Of a stretch of DNA of 40,304 bases, positions 13,384 to 21,023 are shown piece after piece. A model generated the notes under the pieces. The model was not told the DNA's origin. It saw nothing but the letters and a program-made list of their open reading frames with translations, and ran no database searches. Source of the DNA: a virus. A program made the position numbers and the translations under genes. The DNA is taken from positions 1 to 40,304 of IMG/VR virus record IMGVR_UViG_3300036832_000676; one strand, written 5' to 3'. The stretch's first letter is position 1. The number at the start of each line of letters is the position of its first letter.

Positions 13384-14040
13384 CTAGCGCAAGCGCTTGG
13401 TTTCATTGGTCTTTGGGGTGGGGTGGTCTGGCACCCCCGCCACATCTCCAGCCTCGGTCGCCTGCAGCTCGATCTCTTTCTTCCAATCGTCCATGCTCGG
13501 CGGCTTCTCGGTGAAGTAGTTGGCGACGTTCAGATTCAGCACGCTCGGGTCCACGAACAAGCCGAGATGGCGGCCGAGGTCCACGAGCGCCTGGCGCTTG
13601 TCGGCGAGCTTGATGCGAACCCGCTTCACCTCGCGCGCATCCTCGCCGCGGCCATCCTTGTATTCGTCCACTACAATCTCTGAAATCGCGGCGCCTTGGT
13701 CGCGAGTAATCTTCGAAAGATCGAGCTGCGGCTGACCTTTACTGTCGATCGTCCAGTAATCCATAGAGTTGGCGAACGCTAGTCTTGCCAGCTCGGCCAC
13801 GACGCGGTCGGTGGTGACGGCGTAGCGCTCGGCCGTTCGCTCGAGCCGGGCGCGCTCGCGGGCGACCGCCTGGCCGTTCAATTCGGCAATGCGCCTGGAG
13901 CTATCAGGATGGTGCCTGTAGGCCCAGGCTGACTTGCGATTGGGCTTGAGGCCGGTGGCGGCGTAGGCTTCATTGTGCGTCTTTCCCTGCACGATGAGCT
14001 GGCAGAATTTCTCGCGCTTTTCGTCTCGCAGCGCAGGCAT
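13384..14040 (-). CDS. terS: Terminase small subunit
   Basis: The product begins MPALRDEKREKFCQLIVQGK and continues THNEAYAATGLKP, then a helix-turn-helix: this is the N-terminal DNA-recognition domain of the Terminase_2 family. The middle (VTTDRVVAELARLAFANSMD) and the KRQALVDLGRHLGLFVDP segment are the usual oligomerisation region. It recognises the phage DNA and hands it to TerL. I chose ATG at 14040 (218 residues) because AAGGGG lies six bases upstream; the earlier ATG at 14055 overlaps that site. It is the first gene of the late block and is divergent from the DpdA-like gene. Confidence 0.9.
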   Translation of the reverse strand: MPALRDEKREKFCQLIVQGKTHNEAYAATGLKPNRKSAWAYRHHPDSSRRIAELNGQAVARERARLERTAERYAVTTDRVVAELARLAFANSMDYWTIDSKGQPQLDLSKITRDQGAAISEIVVDEYKDGRGEDAREVKRVRIKLADKRQALVDLGRHLGLFVDPSVLNLNVANYFTEKPPSMDDWKKEIELQATEAGDVAGVPDHPTPKTNETKRLR

Positions 14041-14049
14041 ATTTTCCCC

Positions 14050-14078
14050 TTGCATGATAGGACGTTTCGTCCTATATC
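14050..14078 (+). promoter_or_regulatory. Probable sigma70-type promoter of the dpdA-like operon
   Basis: TTGCAT at 14050-14055 and TATATC at 14073-14078 are separated by exactly 17 bases. Transcription would start near 14085, giving a leader of about 30 bases before the ATG at 14117. The spacer and -10 are occupied by the palindrome at 14057-14075, so a bound protein would block it. Confidence 0.6.
14057..14075. promoter_or_regulatory. Palindromic operator ATAGGACG-TTT-CGTCCTAT
   Basis: Two perfect 8-base arms lie around TTT in the 76-base gap between terS and the divergent DpdA-like gene. They lie within the promoter spacer and -10 box. The HTH protein encoded as second gene of the operon (14995-15195) is an obvious candidate ligand, by position only. 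Confidence 0.6.
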
Positions 14079-14116
14079 TCTCCTCGGGCCGGAGAGCCCT
14101 TTTGGAGAGTTGTGTG

Positions 14117-14998
14117 ATGACCTTAGAAAAGACCGCGATTTACGGCCTGCCCTTGAACCCGATGCCTTTGCTCGCCGAGCTCGCGGGCGCTTCGTTCTGT
14201 GTGTCCTACGCCACCCGGCAGAAGCTGGGCAAGCAGCTCGACCAGGCGATTGAGCTGGTCGGCGCCGAGGGCATCCTGCTCGTGGACAACGGCGCCTTCA
14301 GCTTGCACAAGCAGGGCCTCTCGACCCGCGATGAGAGCTATCTCGAGGGCTACGAGGCGTGGGCTAGCTCGATCCTCGAGCGTTGCCCGCAGGCGATCGC
14401 GGTGATCCCTGACGTGATCGACGGCAGCGAGGAAGAGAACGCGCAGATGGTGCGTGAGACGCTGCTGGACACTGAGCGTGCGATGCCGGTGTGGCACATG
14501 CACGAGAGCTTCGATTATCTGCTCTGGCTTTGCGAGAGCTTCGACTATGTCGGCATCGGCTCGAGCGGCCAATACTGGCAGGTAGGTTCGGCGGCCTGGC
14601 ACGCTCGCATCGAGGCGATGTTCGCGGCGATCGCCGCCTGGGAGGCGACTTCGAACGGCGCTTACATTCGGCCGCGCTTGCACATGATGCGGGCTCAGAG
14701 CCAGGCGCATCTCTACGGCTTCGACAGCAGCGATTCGACCAACGTGGCGATGAACCACGGCCGCTATCGGGCCGAGGGCGAGGGCCACGTCGAGCGCTTC
14801 GCGGCGCGGGCTACCGCCAAGATCGCGGCCACATCGGGCGTGGAGGCCGAGCACCAGGCGAAGCGTCCTTTGCTTGGCCATCTCGAGACGGCCGCCGCGC
14901 GGGCTTGCTGGGCGGCGATTTGGGCCGACGATCGCGCCCGGCGCGCGGTCAACGACAACGCGCATGCGCTGTTGGCTGATCTGGAGCTCGCGGCATGA
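14117..14998 (+). CDS. TGT-superfamily / DpdA-like DNA base transglycosylase (candidate)
   Basis: The 293-residue predicted TIM-barrel carries, in order, DNGAFS (57-62), IPDVID (97-102), PVWHMHES (124-131), YVGIGSSG (144-151), RLHMMR (187-192) and FDSSDSTN (202-209). This order parallels tRNA-guanine transglycosylase (substrate Asp and SGGF loop, second Asp, Gly-rich loop, nucleophile Asp), as in phage DpdA, which exchanges guanine in DNA for a 7-deazaguanine to evade restriction. The CxCxxC zinc site of canonical TGTs is absent, as I would expect for a DpdA variant. No preQ0 synthesis genes are present in this genome, so the host would have to supply the base. GGAGAG lies seven bases before ATG. 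It overlaps the next gene (ATGA). Substrate and DNA-versus-RNA target are inferred. Confidence 0.7.
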   Translation: MTLEKTAIYGLPLNPMPLLAELAGASFCVSYATRQKLGKQLDQAIELVGAEGILLVDNGAFSLHKQGLSTRDESYLEGYEAWASSILERCPQAIAVIPDVIDGSEEENAQMVRETLLDTERAMPVWHMHESFDYLLWLCESFDYVGIGSSGQYWQVGSAAWHARIEAMFAAIAAWEATSNGAYIRPRLHMMRAQSQAHLYGFDSSDSTNVAMNHGRYRAEGEGHVERFAARATAKIAATSGVEAEHQAKRPLLGHLETAAARACWAAIWADDRARRAVNDNAHALLADLELAA

Positions 14999-15952: not shown

Positions 15953-18133
15953 TCATGGCGCAATCACCAGGCGACCGCGTTGATGGGACTGGGGGCCGAC
16001 CATTTCGAGGATGATTTTTTTCTCCTGGAAAAGCCGGTTCATGGCTTCTGCCAGGCGCTGCTTGGTGACGCCCTCGGCGCGGTGATCGGCGGCAAACACG
16101 GCGGGTGCGTAGGTAGGGCCTGGCTTGTCGCTGACGTTGCGTCGGTCGCGGTTGTAGATGGCCAGCATTTTGAGAAAGATTTCATCGGCGAAAGCGCGCC
16201 CGGCGCTGCGGTCGAGGCTCGAGCCGCCGGGCGCTAACTGGGGCACGAACACGCCCTCCTGCCATCTAAGTTGCAGCTCAAATCCGCGCTGCGCATAATT
16301 AGCCTTCATGGAGCGCAGCAGGCGCAGATCGGCATCGGGTTCGCGCCTGTCCTCGGTGAGCACGCGCTCGAGGTAGAGGCGGGAGCGGGCCGAGTTGTTC
16401 CAGGCGGTTGAGCCGGAGGTGCCGCTGCCGCTGTTGAGGCCGGAGAGCGAGGGTTGGGCGCAGAGCACGATGCTGGTGTCGTGGCGCAAGGCGAGGCCGC
16501 GCAGCAGGCGCACGAATTGTCCGACCTGGCGCCGGTCGTTTTCGTTGCCGCCGTAGGTGTCGGCGGCGGTGTCGATGACGACCAGAGCGGGCTCGAGGTC
16601 GGCGATCTCGGTTTCAAGCATGGCGAAGCGCGGATGGGCGACGAGCTGCTGGCGTTGGTCGGGCACGGCGAGGGTGGCGTCCTCGCCTGCCAGCGAGATG
16701 ATGATGATGTCGGTGAGCTCCTCGAGCGGCACGCCGTGCTGTTCGCAGATGGCGACCAGGCGCCGGTGCAGCTCGGCGGGTTCTTCCTCGGCCGTGTAGA
16801 CGAGCACGCGGCCGCCCGCGACGGGCAGGCCGAGCCAATTGAGGTTTTCGCGGGTCTGCATGGCCACGGCGAGCTGTAGCACGAGCAGGCTCTTGCCGGT
16901 GCCGCCGTCGCCGTAGAGCAGGGTGACCTCGCGGGTGGGCACCAGCTGATCGACCACGAAGCTGCGTTCCTCGAGCGGCTGGCTGGCGAACGCGGCGACG
17001 CTGAACGAGGCGAAGCGCGGCGGGGGTTTGGTGTCTTTGGTGTCTTTGTGAGGCTCGCTGCCGCCGTTTAGCCGCACCGGGAAGCTGACCACGTTCTGTG
17101 TCTGTGCCGATTGTGCCGATAGTGCCGTTTCGGGCGGATGCTTCTCGAGCCAGGTGATGCACATGCCAAAGAGATTTTCCTGTTCGCGCTTCAGGTCCCA
17201 ATCGGACTGCGCCACCTTGATTGTGGCGTTGAACACCAGGGCCACGGTGTCGGCGAGCGGCATGCCCGCGTTGAGCAGCGAGGCGGTCGTGGCGAGTTGG
17301 GTGGCGTGGACGTTGCCGGGGTAGTGCATGGCGGCCAGCGCCGCCTCGACATCGACCGGCGGCTTCCAGGCGTCGGCGCCATAGGCCTCAAACGGGTTTC
17401 CAGGCGGCTGGGCGGGCGGGACGTTCGTGGCGACCTTGGGACCGGGTGAGCGTCCCGTGGCCGCTGGCGCCTCTGGCGCGGGCGTTTCGGCGGGTTCGGC
17501 GGTGAGCTCCTCGAGCTCGGCCCAGGACACCCGGCCGTCGCTGTGGTTCTTGGCGATCATCGCCGGGCGCTCGTCGCCGTATTTGCTGTTGGTGGTGCCG
17601 GGCAGCCGCATCAGGCGCGAGACATCGCTCACCGCCGGGTCCGAGCCGAAGCGCTGGATCAGGCGGCGCAGCATGCTTTCGGCGGCGGCGAACCGCTCAG
17701 GCTCGAGCGGCTGCTCGAGTAGCCAGTAGGCGTGCAGGCCACGGCCCGAGAGCACGGTGAGCTGCGGCGGCACGGCGGCGCGCTCGAGCATGCCGATGGC
17801 GATCGCTTGCGGGTTGCCGTACGGCGGCTCGCGGCACCAATCGATGTCGATCGGCAGCGCGGGCACACGCCAGATATTCTGCTTGGTGCGGTAGGAGCCG
17901 CGCTTCGACGGCTTGGCGCCGGGCCGGATGGTGCCGATGCAAAAATACAGGCCCCGGCCGGGCTGGTCCCAGCGCTCGATGAAGCTCTTGATGTCGGCCG
18001 GGACGCGGCTGCGCAGGCTCACCTCGCCCGGCTTGCCGCCTGGCTTGTTGGGCAGCGAGCACAGGAAGATGTCGCCCTCGACGCCGTGGAACAGCGTCTT
18101 GAGAAACGCCACTGCGCTCGCCGCATCGGTCAT
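15953..18133 (-). CDS. Replicative primase-helicase (RepB-like primase plus RepA-type ATPase)
   Basis: The N-terminal half is an archaeo-eukaryotic-type primase: IDIDW (95-99, catalytic acids), SGRGLHAYW (129-137) and VSRLMRLPGTTNSK (171-184). A disordered linker contains GNPFEAYG (245-252). The C-terminal half is a RecA-fold helicase with Walker A GDGGTGKS (408-415), VLVYTAEEE, Walker B ALVVIDTAA and a SIVLCAQPS sensor strand, as in plasmid RepA / AAA_25 hexamers. It would unwind and prime phage DNA. At 726 residues both modules are complete. AGGAGG lies a few bases before the ATG at 18133, and the gene follows the SSB-tailed gene by 19 bases. No phage DNA polymerase is present, so the host replisome must elongate. 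Confidence 0.82.
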   Translation of the reverse strand: MTDAASAVAFLKTLFHGVEGDIFLCSLPNKPGGKPGEVSLRSRVPADIKSFIERWDQPGRGLYFCIGTIRPGAKPSKRGSYRTKQNIWRVPALPIDIDWCREPPYGNPQAIAIGMLERAAVPPQLTVLSGRGLHAYWLLEQPLEPERFAAAESMLRRLIQRFGSDPAVSDVSRLMRLPGTTNSKYGDERPAMIAKNHSDGRVSWAELEELTAEPAETPAPEAPAATGRSPGPKVATNVPPAQPPGNPFEAYGADAWKPPVDVEAALAAMHYPGNVHATQLATTASLLNAGMPLADTVALVFNATIKVAQSDWDLKREQENLFGMCITWLEKHPPETALSAQSAQTQNVVSFPVRLNGGSEPHKDTKDTKPPPRFASFSVAAFASQPLEERSFVVDQLVPTREVTLLYGDGGTGKSLLVLQLAVAMQTRENLNWLGLPVAGGRVLVYTAEEEPAELHRRLVAICEQHGVPLEELTDIIIISLAGEDATLAVPDQRQQLVAHPRFAMLETEIADLEPALVVIDTAADTYGGNENDRRQVGQFVRLLRGLALRHDTSIVLCAQPSLSGLNSGSGTSGSTAWNNSARSRLYLERVLTEDRREPDADLRLLRSMKANYAQRGFELQLRWQEGVFVPQLAPGGSSLDRSAGRAFADEIFLKMLAIYNRDRRNVSDKPGPTYAPAVFAADHRAEGVTKQRLAEAMNRLFQEKKIILEMVGPQSHQRGRLVIAP

Positions 18134-18152
18134 AACCCCTCCTCATGCGCGG

Positions 18153-19019
18153 CTAGAACGGGATGTCGTCGCCGTCGTCGCCCTCGCCCGCGTAGGCGGG
18201 CTCCGGCTTCTTCTCCGGCGCATAGTCCTTGTTGGGGGAGGGCTTGCCTTTACGCTCGCTCTTGCCCTTGGCCGCCGCGTAGGCGTAGGCGTTGGCCTTG
18301 GGCTCCGGCGCCGCTTCGATCGCGGCGGCGTCCTCGTCCTCGCGCTCCTCGTGCGCCGCCATCTCGGCCTTGGCCAGGGCCTTCTCCAGGCGCTTGGCGG
18401 CCGTCCAGCCGGAGATGGCGAACAGCGGCACCCAGATTTTGCCCAAGCGCTTGTCGGCGTGCCGGTAGCTGTCCATGGCCAGCGTCACGATCGGCAGCTC
18501 GTCGGGGTGCTGGCGCATGCGCTTGCCGTAGATTTTGGCCAGCTCCTTGAGCGCGCTGTCGCCGCCTTTCGAGCCGGTGACGAAGGTGTAGACAACGCCC
18601 TTCTCATCGACCAAGGGCATGGCCGAGGCCTTCTGCCAGGGGTCGCGCGGCTTGCCGTAGTCGCTGTCCATCTCCGAGCGCGGCCACTCCAGCGTGTTGA
18701 GGAAGCCGAGCTCGGAGCGCCGGGGCGGCACGAAGCCCTCGCCGATGCGGCCCATCACCACGTCCATCGGCCGACCCTCCTGCCAGAGTATCCAGCCGAC
18801 CTCGATCAGCGAGGCCCCAGCGATCAGCCGCAGGCCGTCCTTCATCTCGAGGTTGTCGCGGCCATGCACCCACTCGCCTTTGGAAAACTTCAGCATCTCG
18901 CCGAGGATGCGGGTGCCGCCCGAGTCGCCGTAGGCTTCGAACGGGTTCTTGGGCTCCGGCATGGCCACGTTGCTCGCCGGTCCAGAGGCGTCACGCCTGG
19001 TTGCGATGTCGTTTGTCAT
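18153..19019 (-). CDS. Replication-associated protein with SSB-type DDIPF tail
   Basis: The start at 19019 gives MTNDIATRRDASGPASNVAM, then NPFEAYG (25-31), ILGEMLKFSKGEW (38-50) and a conserved beta-rich body (WILWQEGRPMDVVMGRIGEG, YTFVTGSKGGDSALKELAKIYG, MRQHPDELPIVTLAMDSYRH). A Lys/Glu/Ala-rich disordered tail ends in GDDGDDIPF. I recall this body type as a common uncharacterised protein in alphaproteobacterial phages. The last residues copy the SSB C-terminal tip that recruits replication and repair proteins, so a ssDNA-binding or replisome-scaffold role is likely, although I do not recognise an OB fold. ATGA overlap with the gene upstream; 288 residues. Confidence 0.7.
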   Translation of the reverse strand: MTNDIATRRDASGPASNVAMPEPKNPFEAYGDSGGTRILGEMLKFSKGEWVHGRDNLEMKDGLRLIAGASLIEVGWILWQEGRPMDVVMGRIGEGFVPPRRSELGFLNTLEWPRSEMDSDYGKPRDPWQKASAMPLVDEKGVVYTFVTGSKGGDSALKELAKIYGKRMRQHPDELPIVTLAMDSYRHADKRLGKIWVPLFAISGWTAAKRLEKALAKAEMAAHEEREDEDAAAIEAAPEPKANAYAYAAAKGKSERKGKPSPNKDYAPEKKPEPAYAGEGDDGDDIPF

Positions 19020-19219
19020 GTCTCTCTCTCTTTCGTTCTCTCTCTCGGTTGGCTCCCCAGCCTGGCTTCGTAGTCTCGGATGATCTCCTGCATGATCGCG
19101 ATCTCGTGGGCGGCCACCTCCGGCGGCATCAGCCCGGCGCGCTGCCGCTTGGCGTAGACATGGCGGCGCAGGGCGAGCTCGCGCTCGAGGCATTTGAGCT
19201 TGGCGCGATCATTGAACAT
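19016..19219 (-). CDS. Small conserved phage protein (67 aa)
   Basis: The product is MFNDRAKLKCLERELALRRH followed by VYAKRQRAGLMPPEVAAHEI and AIMQEIIRDYEARL, then a polar tail. The pattern 'dRaK..CL.RElalR..vY.k.v..G.m....A..Ei..M..Ii.dYe' is, to my recollection, widespread among small phage proteins in replication and recombination clusters, with no known function. It overlaps the Cas4-like gene by 11 bases and the SSB-tailed gene by four, so it is coupled to both. Two charged helices make a helical-hairpin fold likely. Confidence 0.75.
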   Translation of the reverse strand: MFNDRAKLKCLERELALRRHVYAKRQRAGLMPPEVAAHEIAIMQEIIRDYEARLGSQPRERTKERET

Positions 19220-20219
19220 GCCGCACCTCCAGCCGGTCGGAGGGGTTGCCGGTGGTCTCGTAGATCGACAGGTCGAGCCCGACCTTCTCGGCCGCCGCGC
19301 GCAGCTTGGGCCAATCCCAGGAGGGCCGTCCCTTCAGGGCCGACCAGACGATGCGCATGCCGTCCTGCTCGACGCGCCGCGTCTCGGCCTGGCGCAAGAT
19401 GTCCTTGATCTCCTGCTCGGCCTCGCGCTTCGACCGCTCGAGCTCCTCGATCGCCGCGACGTGCGCCTGGCGCTCGCGTACCAGGCGCTTGAGCAGGGCC
19501 ACGGTTTGCGGCGGCAGCTCGTCGCGCCCCGCCTCGCGCCCCGGCACCGCAGCGTGACGGATGGCCGAGCAGCTCGAGCGGAAGGGGCAATACTCGCATT
19601 CCTGGCCCCCGGCGATCACGCCCTCGGGCCGGATACTGTCGGCGCTGTTGGCCGCCAGGATGGCGAGCGCGCGGGATCTGAGATTGAGGAAAACCTGCTC
19701 GTCGTAAGGCACGCGAAACTCCCGCACCTCGTCCAGAAAACTGGCGTCGATGTAGGACACCAGCGCCTCGCGCGGACGGTAGCGCGTGGTGGCGTTGAGG
19801 ATGCCCATGCCGACCTGCACCTGGGCCTCGTGCTCCGGCTTGATGCTCTCGATCTTGGCGCGCGGGTCGATCGACTTGCACTCGAGCAGCAGCTCCTCGC
19901 CGTCCTGCTCGAGAATGCCGTCCGGCGTCGCCGAGAGCGGCGACTGATCATCGAAAAAGGTGCGCTGATAGCGCCCGGCGAAATGCAGTTTGCGGCGCCC
20001 GGCATACTCGCGCATTGCCTTCGACCACAGCACCTCGATCAGGTTGCCGCGCTCCTGCGCCCCCCAGCGCTCGGCCTGGTCTTTCTCGCCGCCATGCTTC
20101 AGGAACCACAGCTTGCGAGCGCATTGCCCGATCTCGGACGAGCCGATCGTCTTGGTGCGGTCGTGCGTGAAGGCGCGCCGGTTCTCGGTGACGTAGGCGT
20201 GCAGGGCCTCCTTGATCAT
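19209..20219 (-). CDS. Cas4/RecB-like PD-(D/E)XK exonuclease with Fe-S cysteines
   Basis: The 336-residue nuclease has ATPDGIL (Asp100) and LLLECKS (Glu113, Lys115), the D-ExK metal site. Four cysteines, Cys33 in IGQCARKLWF and Cys208, Cys211, Cys217 in ECEYCPFRSSC, match the iron-sulphur staple of Cas4 and AddB nucleases. A coiled coil follows at about 240-280 (VRERQAHVAAIEELERSKRE). It would resect phage DNA ends for recombination-dependent replication. It is part of the leftward early operon, overlapping the genes on both sides. No Cas1 or CRISPR array is present, so an adaptation role is not indicated. Confidence 0.82.
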   Translation of the reverse strand: MIKEALHAYVTENRRAFTHDRTKTIGSSEIGQCARKLWFLKHGGEKDQAERWGAQERGNLIEVLWSKAMREYAGRRKLHFAGRYQRTFFDDQSPLSATPDGILEQDGEELLLECKSIDPRAKIESIKPEHEAQVQVGMGILNATTRYRPREALVSYIDASFLDEVREFRVPYDEQVFLNLRSRALAILAANSADSIRPEGVIAGGQECEYCPFRSSCSAIRHAAVPGREAGRDELPPQTVALLKRLVRERQAHVAAIEELERSKREAEQEIKDILRQAETRRVEQDGMRIVWSALKGRPSWDWPKLRAAAEKVGLDLSIYETTGNPSDRLEVRHVQ

Positions 20220-20650
20220 GTGAGCATCTCTCTGAGCTTGAGGAACACGCTTGGCCGACCGTCGAAGATCGGGTCGTCAAAGGGCGGCAGGCCCTGGCTC
20301 TCGCGCAGCGAGATGATGGCGCCCGAGATCAGATGCAGCGCCTCGAAGCGCAGCGCCGGGCTGGCTTCTTTGAGCCAGGTGAGGGCTTGCACCCAGCGCA
20401 CCAGCTCGGCGCCACGCTCCGGCGTCAGCGTCTCGAGGTAGGCGATGACCTCGCCGAGCTCGGCGCCGTGCGGCCCGGCGAGCAGCCGGGCCCGGTCCTC
20501 GGCCTTGACCGCCTGGTAGCGCCGCTCGAGCTCGCGCTTCTCGGCCATGACGGCGGCCAGCTTCTTCTGCCGCAGCCGGGCGCGCGTCTCGAGGCGCTCT
20601 TGCCATTTCGGCTTCTCGGCCTCGGCCCAGGCTTCAAACGGGTTCGACAC
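20216..20650 (-). CDS. Hypothetical replication-module protein with NPFEAW motif
   Basis: I chose GTG at 20650, preceded by GGGAGG eight bases upstream, giving (M)SNPFEAWAEAEKPKWQERL and 144 residues. An upstream in-frame ATG at 20731 would add 27 low-complexity residues inside the VRR-NUC gene and has no good site. A basic helix (RARLRQKKLAAVMAEKRELE) is followed by a helical body (ALTWLKEASPALRFEALHLI) and FDDPIFDGRPSVFLKLREML. No family is recognised. The N-terminal NPFEAW parallels NPFEAYG in two neighbours, suggesting a shared binding partner. It overlaps the gene before by 17 bases and the gene after by four. Confidence 0.65.
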   Translation of the reverse strand: MSNPFEAWAEAEKPKWQERLETRARLRQKKLAAVMAEKRELERRYQAVKAEDRARLLAGPHGAELGEVIAYLETLTPERGAELVRWVQALTWLKEASPALRFEALHLISGAIISLRESQGLPPFDDPIFDGRPSVFLKLREMLT

Positions 20651-21023
20651 GTCGCGCCTCCCGCGTGCGGATGCCCCACAGCCTGAGCGCGTCGCGGATG
20701 TCCTCGATGCTCTTGAACACGCACACGCCATGGCCGCGCTCGCCGAGCTCGAGGATCATGTCGCGTTGCTCGTCCGACAGCCGGGCATGGGAGCGGTCGG
20801 CCTTGGCCTCGAGGAAGTAGATGCGCTGGCCATAAAGCATGCCGAGGTCGGGCATGCCCGGCTTCAGGCCCGGCACGGCGTTGCCCGCCTTGCCGTTCTT
20901 CTGGCGCTTGGCGGCGTTCGGAATCGCGAACACCAGCGGCTTGGGCAGCACCACTGCCTCGAGAAAATCAATGGCAGCGCGCTGCACCGCGTTCTCGCGC
21001 GCGCCGGGTCCGCGTCGCGGCAT
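20634..21023 (-). CDS. VRR-NUC domain nuclease
   Basis: The 129-residue stand-alone VRR-NUC has RENAVQRAAIDFLEA (9-23), FAIPNAAKR, GMPDLGML (Pro58-Asp59) and IYFLEAKADRSHARLSDEQR with the ExK pair Glu72-Lys74. This PD-(D/E)XK subfamily acts on branched DNA; phage members often sit next to replication genes and probably resolve junctions. Start at 21023 is preceded by GGAG six bases upstream, overlapping the stop of the XRE regulator three bases away. Confidence 0.85.
   Translation of the reverse strand: MPRRGPGARENAVQRAAIDFLEAVVLPKPLVFAIPNAAKRQKNGKAGNAVPGLKPGMPDLGMLYGQRIYFLEAKADRSHARLSDEQRDMILELGERGHGVCVFKSIEDIRDALRLWGIRTREARRVEPV

Follow-up and report, generated by a model that had tools for sequence, protein, structure and literature searches.

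A conserved aromatic motif in three phage replication proteins as a candidate docking signal

Do three otherwise unrelated proteins of one phage replication operon carry the same short motif in order to assemble on a common partner? The question is raised by the virus record IMGVR_UViG_3300036832_000676, analyzed here over its whole length of 40,304 bases (66% G+C; hereafter, the window). A preliminary description had pointed to the letters NPFEA(Y/W) in a primase-helicase, in a protein with a tail like that of single-stranded DNA-binding proteins (SSB-like; here, the SSB) and in a 144-residue protein, here called P3. Our analysis agrees that these proteins are encoded in one operon and are otherwise unrelated, and all three copies were found, on the minus strand, at the positions given for them.

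17378..17398, minus strand: motif copy 1, NPFEAYG, residues 246-252 of the primase-helicase, in the inter-domain linker (context GNPFEAYGAD)
18927..18947, minus strand: motif copy 2, NPFEAYG, residues 25-31 of the SSB (counted from the ATG at 19019), in the flexible N-terminal tail (context KNPFEAYGDS)
20627..20644, minus strand: motif copy 3, NPFEAW, residues 3-8 of P3 (counted from its GTG start; context VSNPFEAWAE)

We suggest that these copies belong to a phage-encoded docking code, in which one pocket, most simply on the SSB, reads an N-capped aromatic helix present on the SSB tail, on primase-helicases with exchangeable engines, and on P3; the code would be conserved across phages of Alphaproteobacteria, the small temperate as well as the large and jumbo ones, with phenylalanine and tyrosine co-evolving between the proteins. 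The probability of this complete reading is put at about 0.38. The more general statement, that the three proteins share a short linear docking motif and that one receptor, of whatever identity, reads all copies of it, appears likely.

The motif in the window and in related phages

A six-frame scan of the window revealed no NPFEA beyond the three copies, and one additional NPF only. Within the seven proteins of the operon, a 7-mer common to two proteins together with a 5-mer common to three arose in one of 5000 shuffles. The same sharing of k-mers is frequent when all 48 open reading frames (ORFs) of the window are taken, so the evidence of the window alone is only moderately convincing; further, these statistics were picked post hoc. 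The decisive support for the motif is its conservation in relatives.

The relatives were collected from IMG/VR with two alignments, one of the exonuclease encoded in the same operon and one of close SSB homologues, each of which yielded 80 loci; the two sets partly overlap, and the loci are thus in part selected via the exonuclease. These alignments recovered relatives missed by single-protein scans of IMG/VR, which gave none for the SSB or P3 and AAA-domain relatives only for the primase-helicase. A scan of genome contigs with P3 produced one dubious match. Homologues of the SSB, the primase-helicase and P3 occur in the same module across the IMG/VR loci.

In the non-redundant IMG/VR sets, the pattern [ND]-x-[FWY]-x-x-[YFHALV]-[AGS] is present in 78 of 89 SSB N-terminal tails (shuffled maximum 6), 40 of 49 primase linkers (shuffled maximum 5) and 34 of 52 P3 N-termini (shuffled maximum 4). 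The primase linkers that do not match mostly have I or M at position six, for instance NPYLAIA. The motif is nearly exclusive to these three families: the strict form [ND]P[FWY]xx[YFHAW][AG] was found in 5 of 1243 and 2 of 1093 other ORFs of the loci, and these seven matches include one SSB fragment and three methyltransferase-like DPFGGAG sites. Both the SSB tails and the primase linkers are variable around a short conserved island. The linkers read [ND]P[FYW]..[hydrophobic]A, followed about 8 residues later by PP[VL]D, and the N-termini of P3 homologues read NPFEAFAD, NPFDAYAE, NPFEALAD, MNAFLEFAE and similar. The tyrosine Y30 of the SSB is invariant in 14 close relatives, and the motif is lost or blurred in the SSB of three loci (L205, L208, L209). 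Thus a motif is common, above chance, to unrelated proteins of one pathway, as is characteristic of short linear motifs. The exact letters NPFEA(Y/W) hold for the window; beyond it, they have to be replaced by the broader [ND]x[FWY]xx[hydrophobic][AG].

These data bear on the alternative that the copies arose by chance or by duplication of DNA inside the window. It could draw on the frequency with which some pair of ORFs in the window has a 7-mer in common. It is opposed by the conservation of the motif in more than 100 homologues and by the DNA itself: the 60-nt flanks of the three sites are 23-38% identical and the synonymous codons differ, which argues that the copies are not a DNA duplication. 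Both chance and duplication were rejected on the conservation data, the codons and the flanks, and we give them next to no weight.

A DNA scan for sequences coding for NPFEAYG found 14 contigs, mostly with unrelated proteins, which is about the chance level by a rough estimate. In one marine phage contig (L016, 4465-5289, minus strand) NPFEAYG stands at the N-terminus of a Cas4-like exonuclease adjoining an unrelated SSB-like protein; a tblastn search with this exonuclease gave one distant relative, and the match stops short of the motif.

The motif was found with its proteins not only in the homologous operons but also in another phage lineage. The SSB family is present in phages of Caulobacter, Brevundimonas, Sphingobium, Erythrobacter, Citromicrobium, Mesorhizobium and Phaeobacter, usually shortly after a homologue of the exonuclease. 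An alignment of all 16 SSBs from named phages is too divergent for scanning. The tails are variable except for one island directly before the core, reading NPFASA, DPFASA, NPWAEA, NPWADQ or NPFAAA, and D[YF]YAA[LI] in Caulobacter-type phages. In phage RXM, the SSB island NPWADQ and the linker island NPWSDQ of the primase-helicase form the top match among ORFs (score 35, the next being 23). Such motif matching yielded an outlier in RXM only among the large phages, and the primase-helicases of the others were located by homology. With eleven phages aligned, the linker island reads SNPWSDQ, SNAFTDA, ANAFTDA, SNAFTAA, MSAWDVA, SDPFDQA, DDPFEAE, LNAFEMA or VNAFTMA, and it is degenerate in CcrColossus and Kikimora. 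In total, nine to eleven large alphaproteobacterial phages have the motif in both the SSB and the primase, and large phages with their own DNA polymerase retain it.

Helicase exchange, joint absence and aromatic covariation

The linker motif persists when the engine behind it is exchanged. In the IMG/VR loci (L150-L207) the primase part is fused to a helicase of one of at least four classes (D5/SF3, VapE-like, AAA_25 and DUF3987), and in RXM and its close relatives the helicase half also differs from the AAA_25 type of the window. In a primase-helicase of another type (L151), TDWSRYA in the linker is the sole match to x-x-[FWY]-x-x-[YFH]-[AG] in 681 residues. In the closest relative of the window (L150, 12107-14411) the primase-helicase is split into two overlapping frames, by a frameshift or a sequencing error; its linker motif reads NLFERHG.

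Absence of the motif is concordant too. In a marine group of six loci (L217, L223, L225, L226, L228, L229) no aromatic motif is present in the SSB tail, nor in the separate short primases, which were examined from five loci of this group.

Finally, the identity of the aromatic residue covaries between two different proteins. Among 48 pairs of SSB and primase, the combinations are F/F in 33, Y/Y in 9, F/Y in 2, F/W in 2, Y/W in 1 and Y/F in 1. After the distances of the SSB core and of the primase domain were regressed out, the partial Mantel correlation is 0.63 (reached in none of 5000 permutations); for N versus D at the first position it is 0.31 (5 of 5000). Four or more changes of the SSB aromatic can be counted on the tree of this protein, and tyrosine occurs in both proteins in three separate lineages. 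Covariation of this kind is a prediction of a shared pocket, and relatedness of the loci weakens the test.

The replication module and candidate receptors

The genes of the module are transcribed from the minus strand in the order P0005, P0003 (P3), P0004, P0007, P0002 and P0001.

20634..21023, minus strand: VRR-NUC-like nuclease P0005, heading the operon, without the motif (phrog_824, E 3.2e-16; VRR_NUC slightly under the cut-off)
20216..20650, minus strand: P3 (P0003), 144 residues, GTG start, with homologues in IMG/VR loci
19209..20219, minus strand: RecE/Cas4-like PD-(D/E)XK exonuclease P0004, without the motif (phrog_434, E 6.5e-28)
19016..19219, minus strand: 67-residue protein P0007, without the motif (phrog_19667, E 1.6e-5)
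18153..19019, minus strand: SSB-like protein P0002, 288 residues (phrog_9528 family; beta-rich core in the AlphaFold2 model, weak Foldseek matches to SSBs)
18156..18182, minus strand: acidic C-terminal tip GDDGDDIPF of P0002, resembling in sequence the C-terminal tip of bacterial SSBs
15953..18133, minus strand: primase-helicase P0001, 726 residues (AAA_25, E 1e-30; RepB_primase, E 1.2e-5; AlphaFold2 model)

P0001 consists of a RepB-type primase, the linker, a helical domain and the AAA_25 helicase. P3, which has no Pfam or PHROG match, is helical-looking and has the N-terminal motif followed by a variable basic stretch and a conserved C-terminal region (alignment A5). Outside the operon, a plus-strand gene at 13976-14998, with the terminase small subunit on one side and the replication operon on the other, encodes a product like phage queuine tRNA-ribosyltransferase-like proteins (phrog_887, E 1.7e-31).

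All 43 members of the SSB alignment A4 match phrog_9528, a family labelled "nucleotidyltransferase", whereas the AlphaFold2 model has a beta-rich core like that of oligonucleotide/oligosaccharide-binding folds and a disordered C-terminus, acidic or of low complexity. The label looks wrong, and on the model the family looks like a phage SSB. Foldseek returned weak matches of the P0002 model to bacterial SSBs; the best in the PDB, also weak, was the phiC31 excisive complex of integrase and recombination directionality factor (9teh, E 0.025, probability 0.92), and clear matches were to unnamed phage proteins, the phiCbK homologue first. The 9teh match hints at a possible origin of the phiC31 directionality factor from a replication protein of this kind. 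Sequence searches of the PDB gave nothing useful for the SSB or P3. The C-termini of the SSB family are DDIPF, DEIPF, EEIPF or EDIPF in some members (L176, L193, L236, L246, L283) and basic, of RRF, TRF or ARF type, in others; the switch between these ends may mark the use of host partners.

The preliminary description had placed the motif in disordered segments. In the model of P0002, built from 43 sequences, the predicted local distance difference test score (pLDDT) is about 97 in the core and about 50-68 in the tail, with a short helix at 26-33. The model of P0001, built from 26 sequences, has a confident primase domain (about 1-215) and a confident helical domain (about 261-331); the linker between them falls below 50 at 221-246 and 248-256, with a short helix at 247-255. 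The C-terminal helicase came out poorly, probably because a different helicase is present in most of the homologues. Thus pLDDT around the two modelled copies is mostly about 40-68, beside confident domains; burial in a folded domain was looked for and not seen in the models, and both copies probably lie in disordered segments. The motif looks like a helix that would firm up on binding, with Asn or Asp as the N-cap, then Pro, and the aromatic and the hydrophobic residue three positions later on one face.

The same geometry would suit a motif without any common partner, namely a local helix cap packing on its own protein, [ND]P[FWY] being a convergence on a good helix start. Asn/Asp-Pro-aromatic is a natural N-cap, a short helix begins there in both modelled copies, and in the primases the next domain follows at a constant distance. 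We consider this explanation improbable: a local cap would hardly be near-exclusive to three functionally linked families, recur on helicases of different classes, covary between F and Y in two different proteins and be modelled with low pLDDT.

If the motif is a docking element, small temperate phages in which no polymerase is recognised and large phages that encode one should both have its receptor. The candidates are then the SSB core, the exonuclease and a host protein. Of these we favor the SSB core, since one explanation then covers all three carriers; this is a tentative first guess. The motif, [ND]-(P)-[FWY]-x-x-[hydrophobic]-[AG], would form an N-capped amphipathic helix, displayed by each of the three proteins on a flexible segment, and the aromatic residue at position 3 and the hydrophobic residue at position 6 would share a face and enter one common pocket. 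The SSB tail would dock onto the core of a neighbouring SSB, and the primase-helicase and P3 would board the filament via the same motif, so that contacts with the pocket would keep the SSB assembled with P3 and the priming helicase along single-stranded DNA.

A scan of alignment columns for association with the aromatic residue gave the strongest values in the SSB core, at S184 (r 0.45) and S46 (r 0.44) of P0002, and 0.38 for the best column of the exonuclease, a result that does not single out a receptor. The exonuclease P0004 could itself be the receptor, recruiting the SSB, the primase-helicase and P3 in recombination-dependent replication. In nearly all relatives a homologue of it is found in synteny with the SSB, and it has no motif of its own; further, phage Mel-JY33 has no homologous exonuclease, and its SSB has no aromatic motif, though this call is ambiguous. 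However, Mel-JY33 is a single case, the synteny comes from loci picked in part by the exonuclease, its best covarying column ranks below two columns of the SSB core, and a nuclease would be an unlikely hub for a primase. This receptor seems unlikely, if the foremost of the alternatives.

Somewhat less likely still is a host replication protein, by which a phage without a polymerase would capture the host machine. This possibility is suggested by the lack of a recognised DNA polymerase among the window proteins tested and by the host-like tip in which the window SSB ends. It fits poorly with the retention of the motif in large phages with their own DNA polymerase, the F/Y switch would need repeated parallel changes in hosts, and the letters are unlike the bacterial clamp-binding motif. 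Some weight is left for readings not considered.

Several observations weigh against the docking code. No receptor site was found for the motif. The covariation of SSB and primase may in part stem from common descent, or from the module having been transferred as one piece, and the aromatic residue of P3 does not track the F/Y switch; the P3 homologues of four loci (L181, L187, L202, L203) have no motif at all. The counts use the very data on which the pattern had been refined, and the two IMG/VR sets overlap. Low pLDDT from 26-43 sequences does not prove disorder, and the primase motif could, judging from its sequence setting, pack on the following domain, since its distance from PP[VL]D is fixed.

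Should the docking code be correct, it would supply a simple rule by which the members of a large, little-studied group of phage replisomes assemble and explain how helicase types are swapped without loss of the complex. It would also point to a function for the P3 family, and replacement of F or Y by A would be a one-residue handle for dismantling the machine.

Comparison with known systems

We found no description of such a motif in phage replication proteins in open-licence full texts, and the closest comparisons come from other short motifs. Bacterial sliding clamps are bound via QLxLF or QxxLxF, and the phage motif does not have this form (the letters alone were compared). In RAD51 and the BRC repeats of BRCA2, a self-association motif, FxxA, is mimicked by a partner, and the receptor is a RecA-fold ATPase. 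Many primase copies also read F-x-x-A, whereas the SSB and P3 copies mostly have Y, F or L in place of A.

The bacterial SSB tip DDDIPF likewise makes an SSB a hub via a short motif, and the tip GDDGDDIPF of the window SSB is similar. However, the bacterial tip is confined to the C-terminus of SSB, whereas the NPF-like motif is in the N-terminal tail and in two other proteins.

The favored receptor model has its nearest counterpart in T4 gp32, where the N-terminal LAST motif, the basic KRKST, confers cooperativity by docking on the core of the SSB next to it (PMC12893549). Both are N-terminal SSB motifs, and tail-to-core docking is what we propose here. LAST has no aromatic residue, while the conserved island of the phage SSBs is aromatic, lacks the basic clustering of K/R and S/T, and recurs in other proteins.

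The other parallel is in human DNA polymerase epsilon, whose POLE2 subunit is the hub on which Asn-Pro-Phe motifs in disordered regions of DONSON, WDHD1 and TTF2 dock (PMC12808100). The likeness is that Asn-Pro-Phe recurs in several unrelated replication proteins, in segments that are disordered there and probably so in the phage. Compared with the NPF of POLE2 and EH domains, the phage consensus is broader, [ND]x[FWY], and longer, as it needs a hydrophobic residue three positions further and then A or G; departures from strict Asn-Pro-Phe are common, with D for N, V, A, Y or F for P, and W or Y for F. No POLE2 or EH-domain homologue was seen. Because of this broader and longer consensus, we regard the NPF of POLE2 as a parallel rather than as a system to which the phage motif belongs. 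If the docking code is correct, phages would have arrived independently at a hub comparable to that recently reported for human DNA polymerase epsilon.

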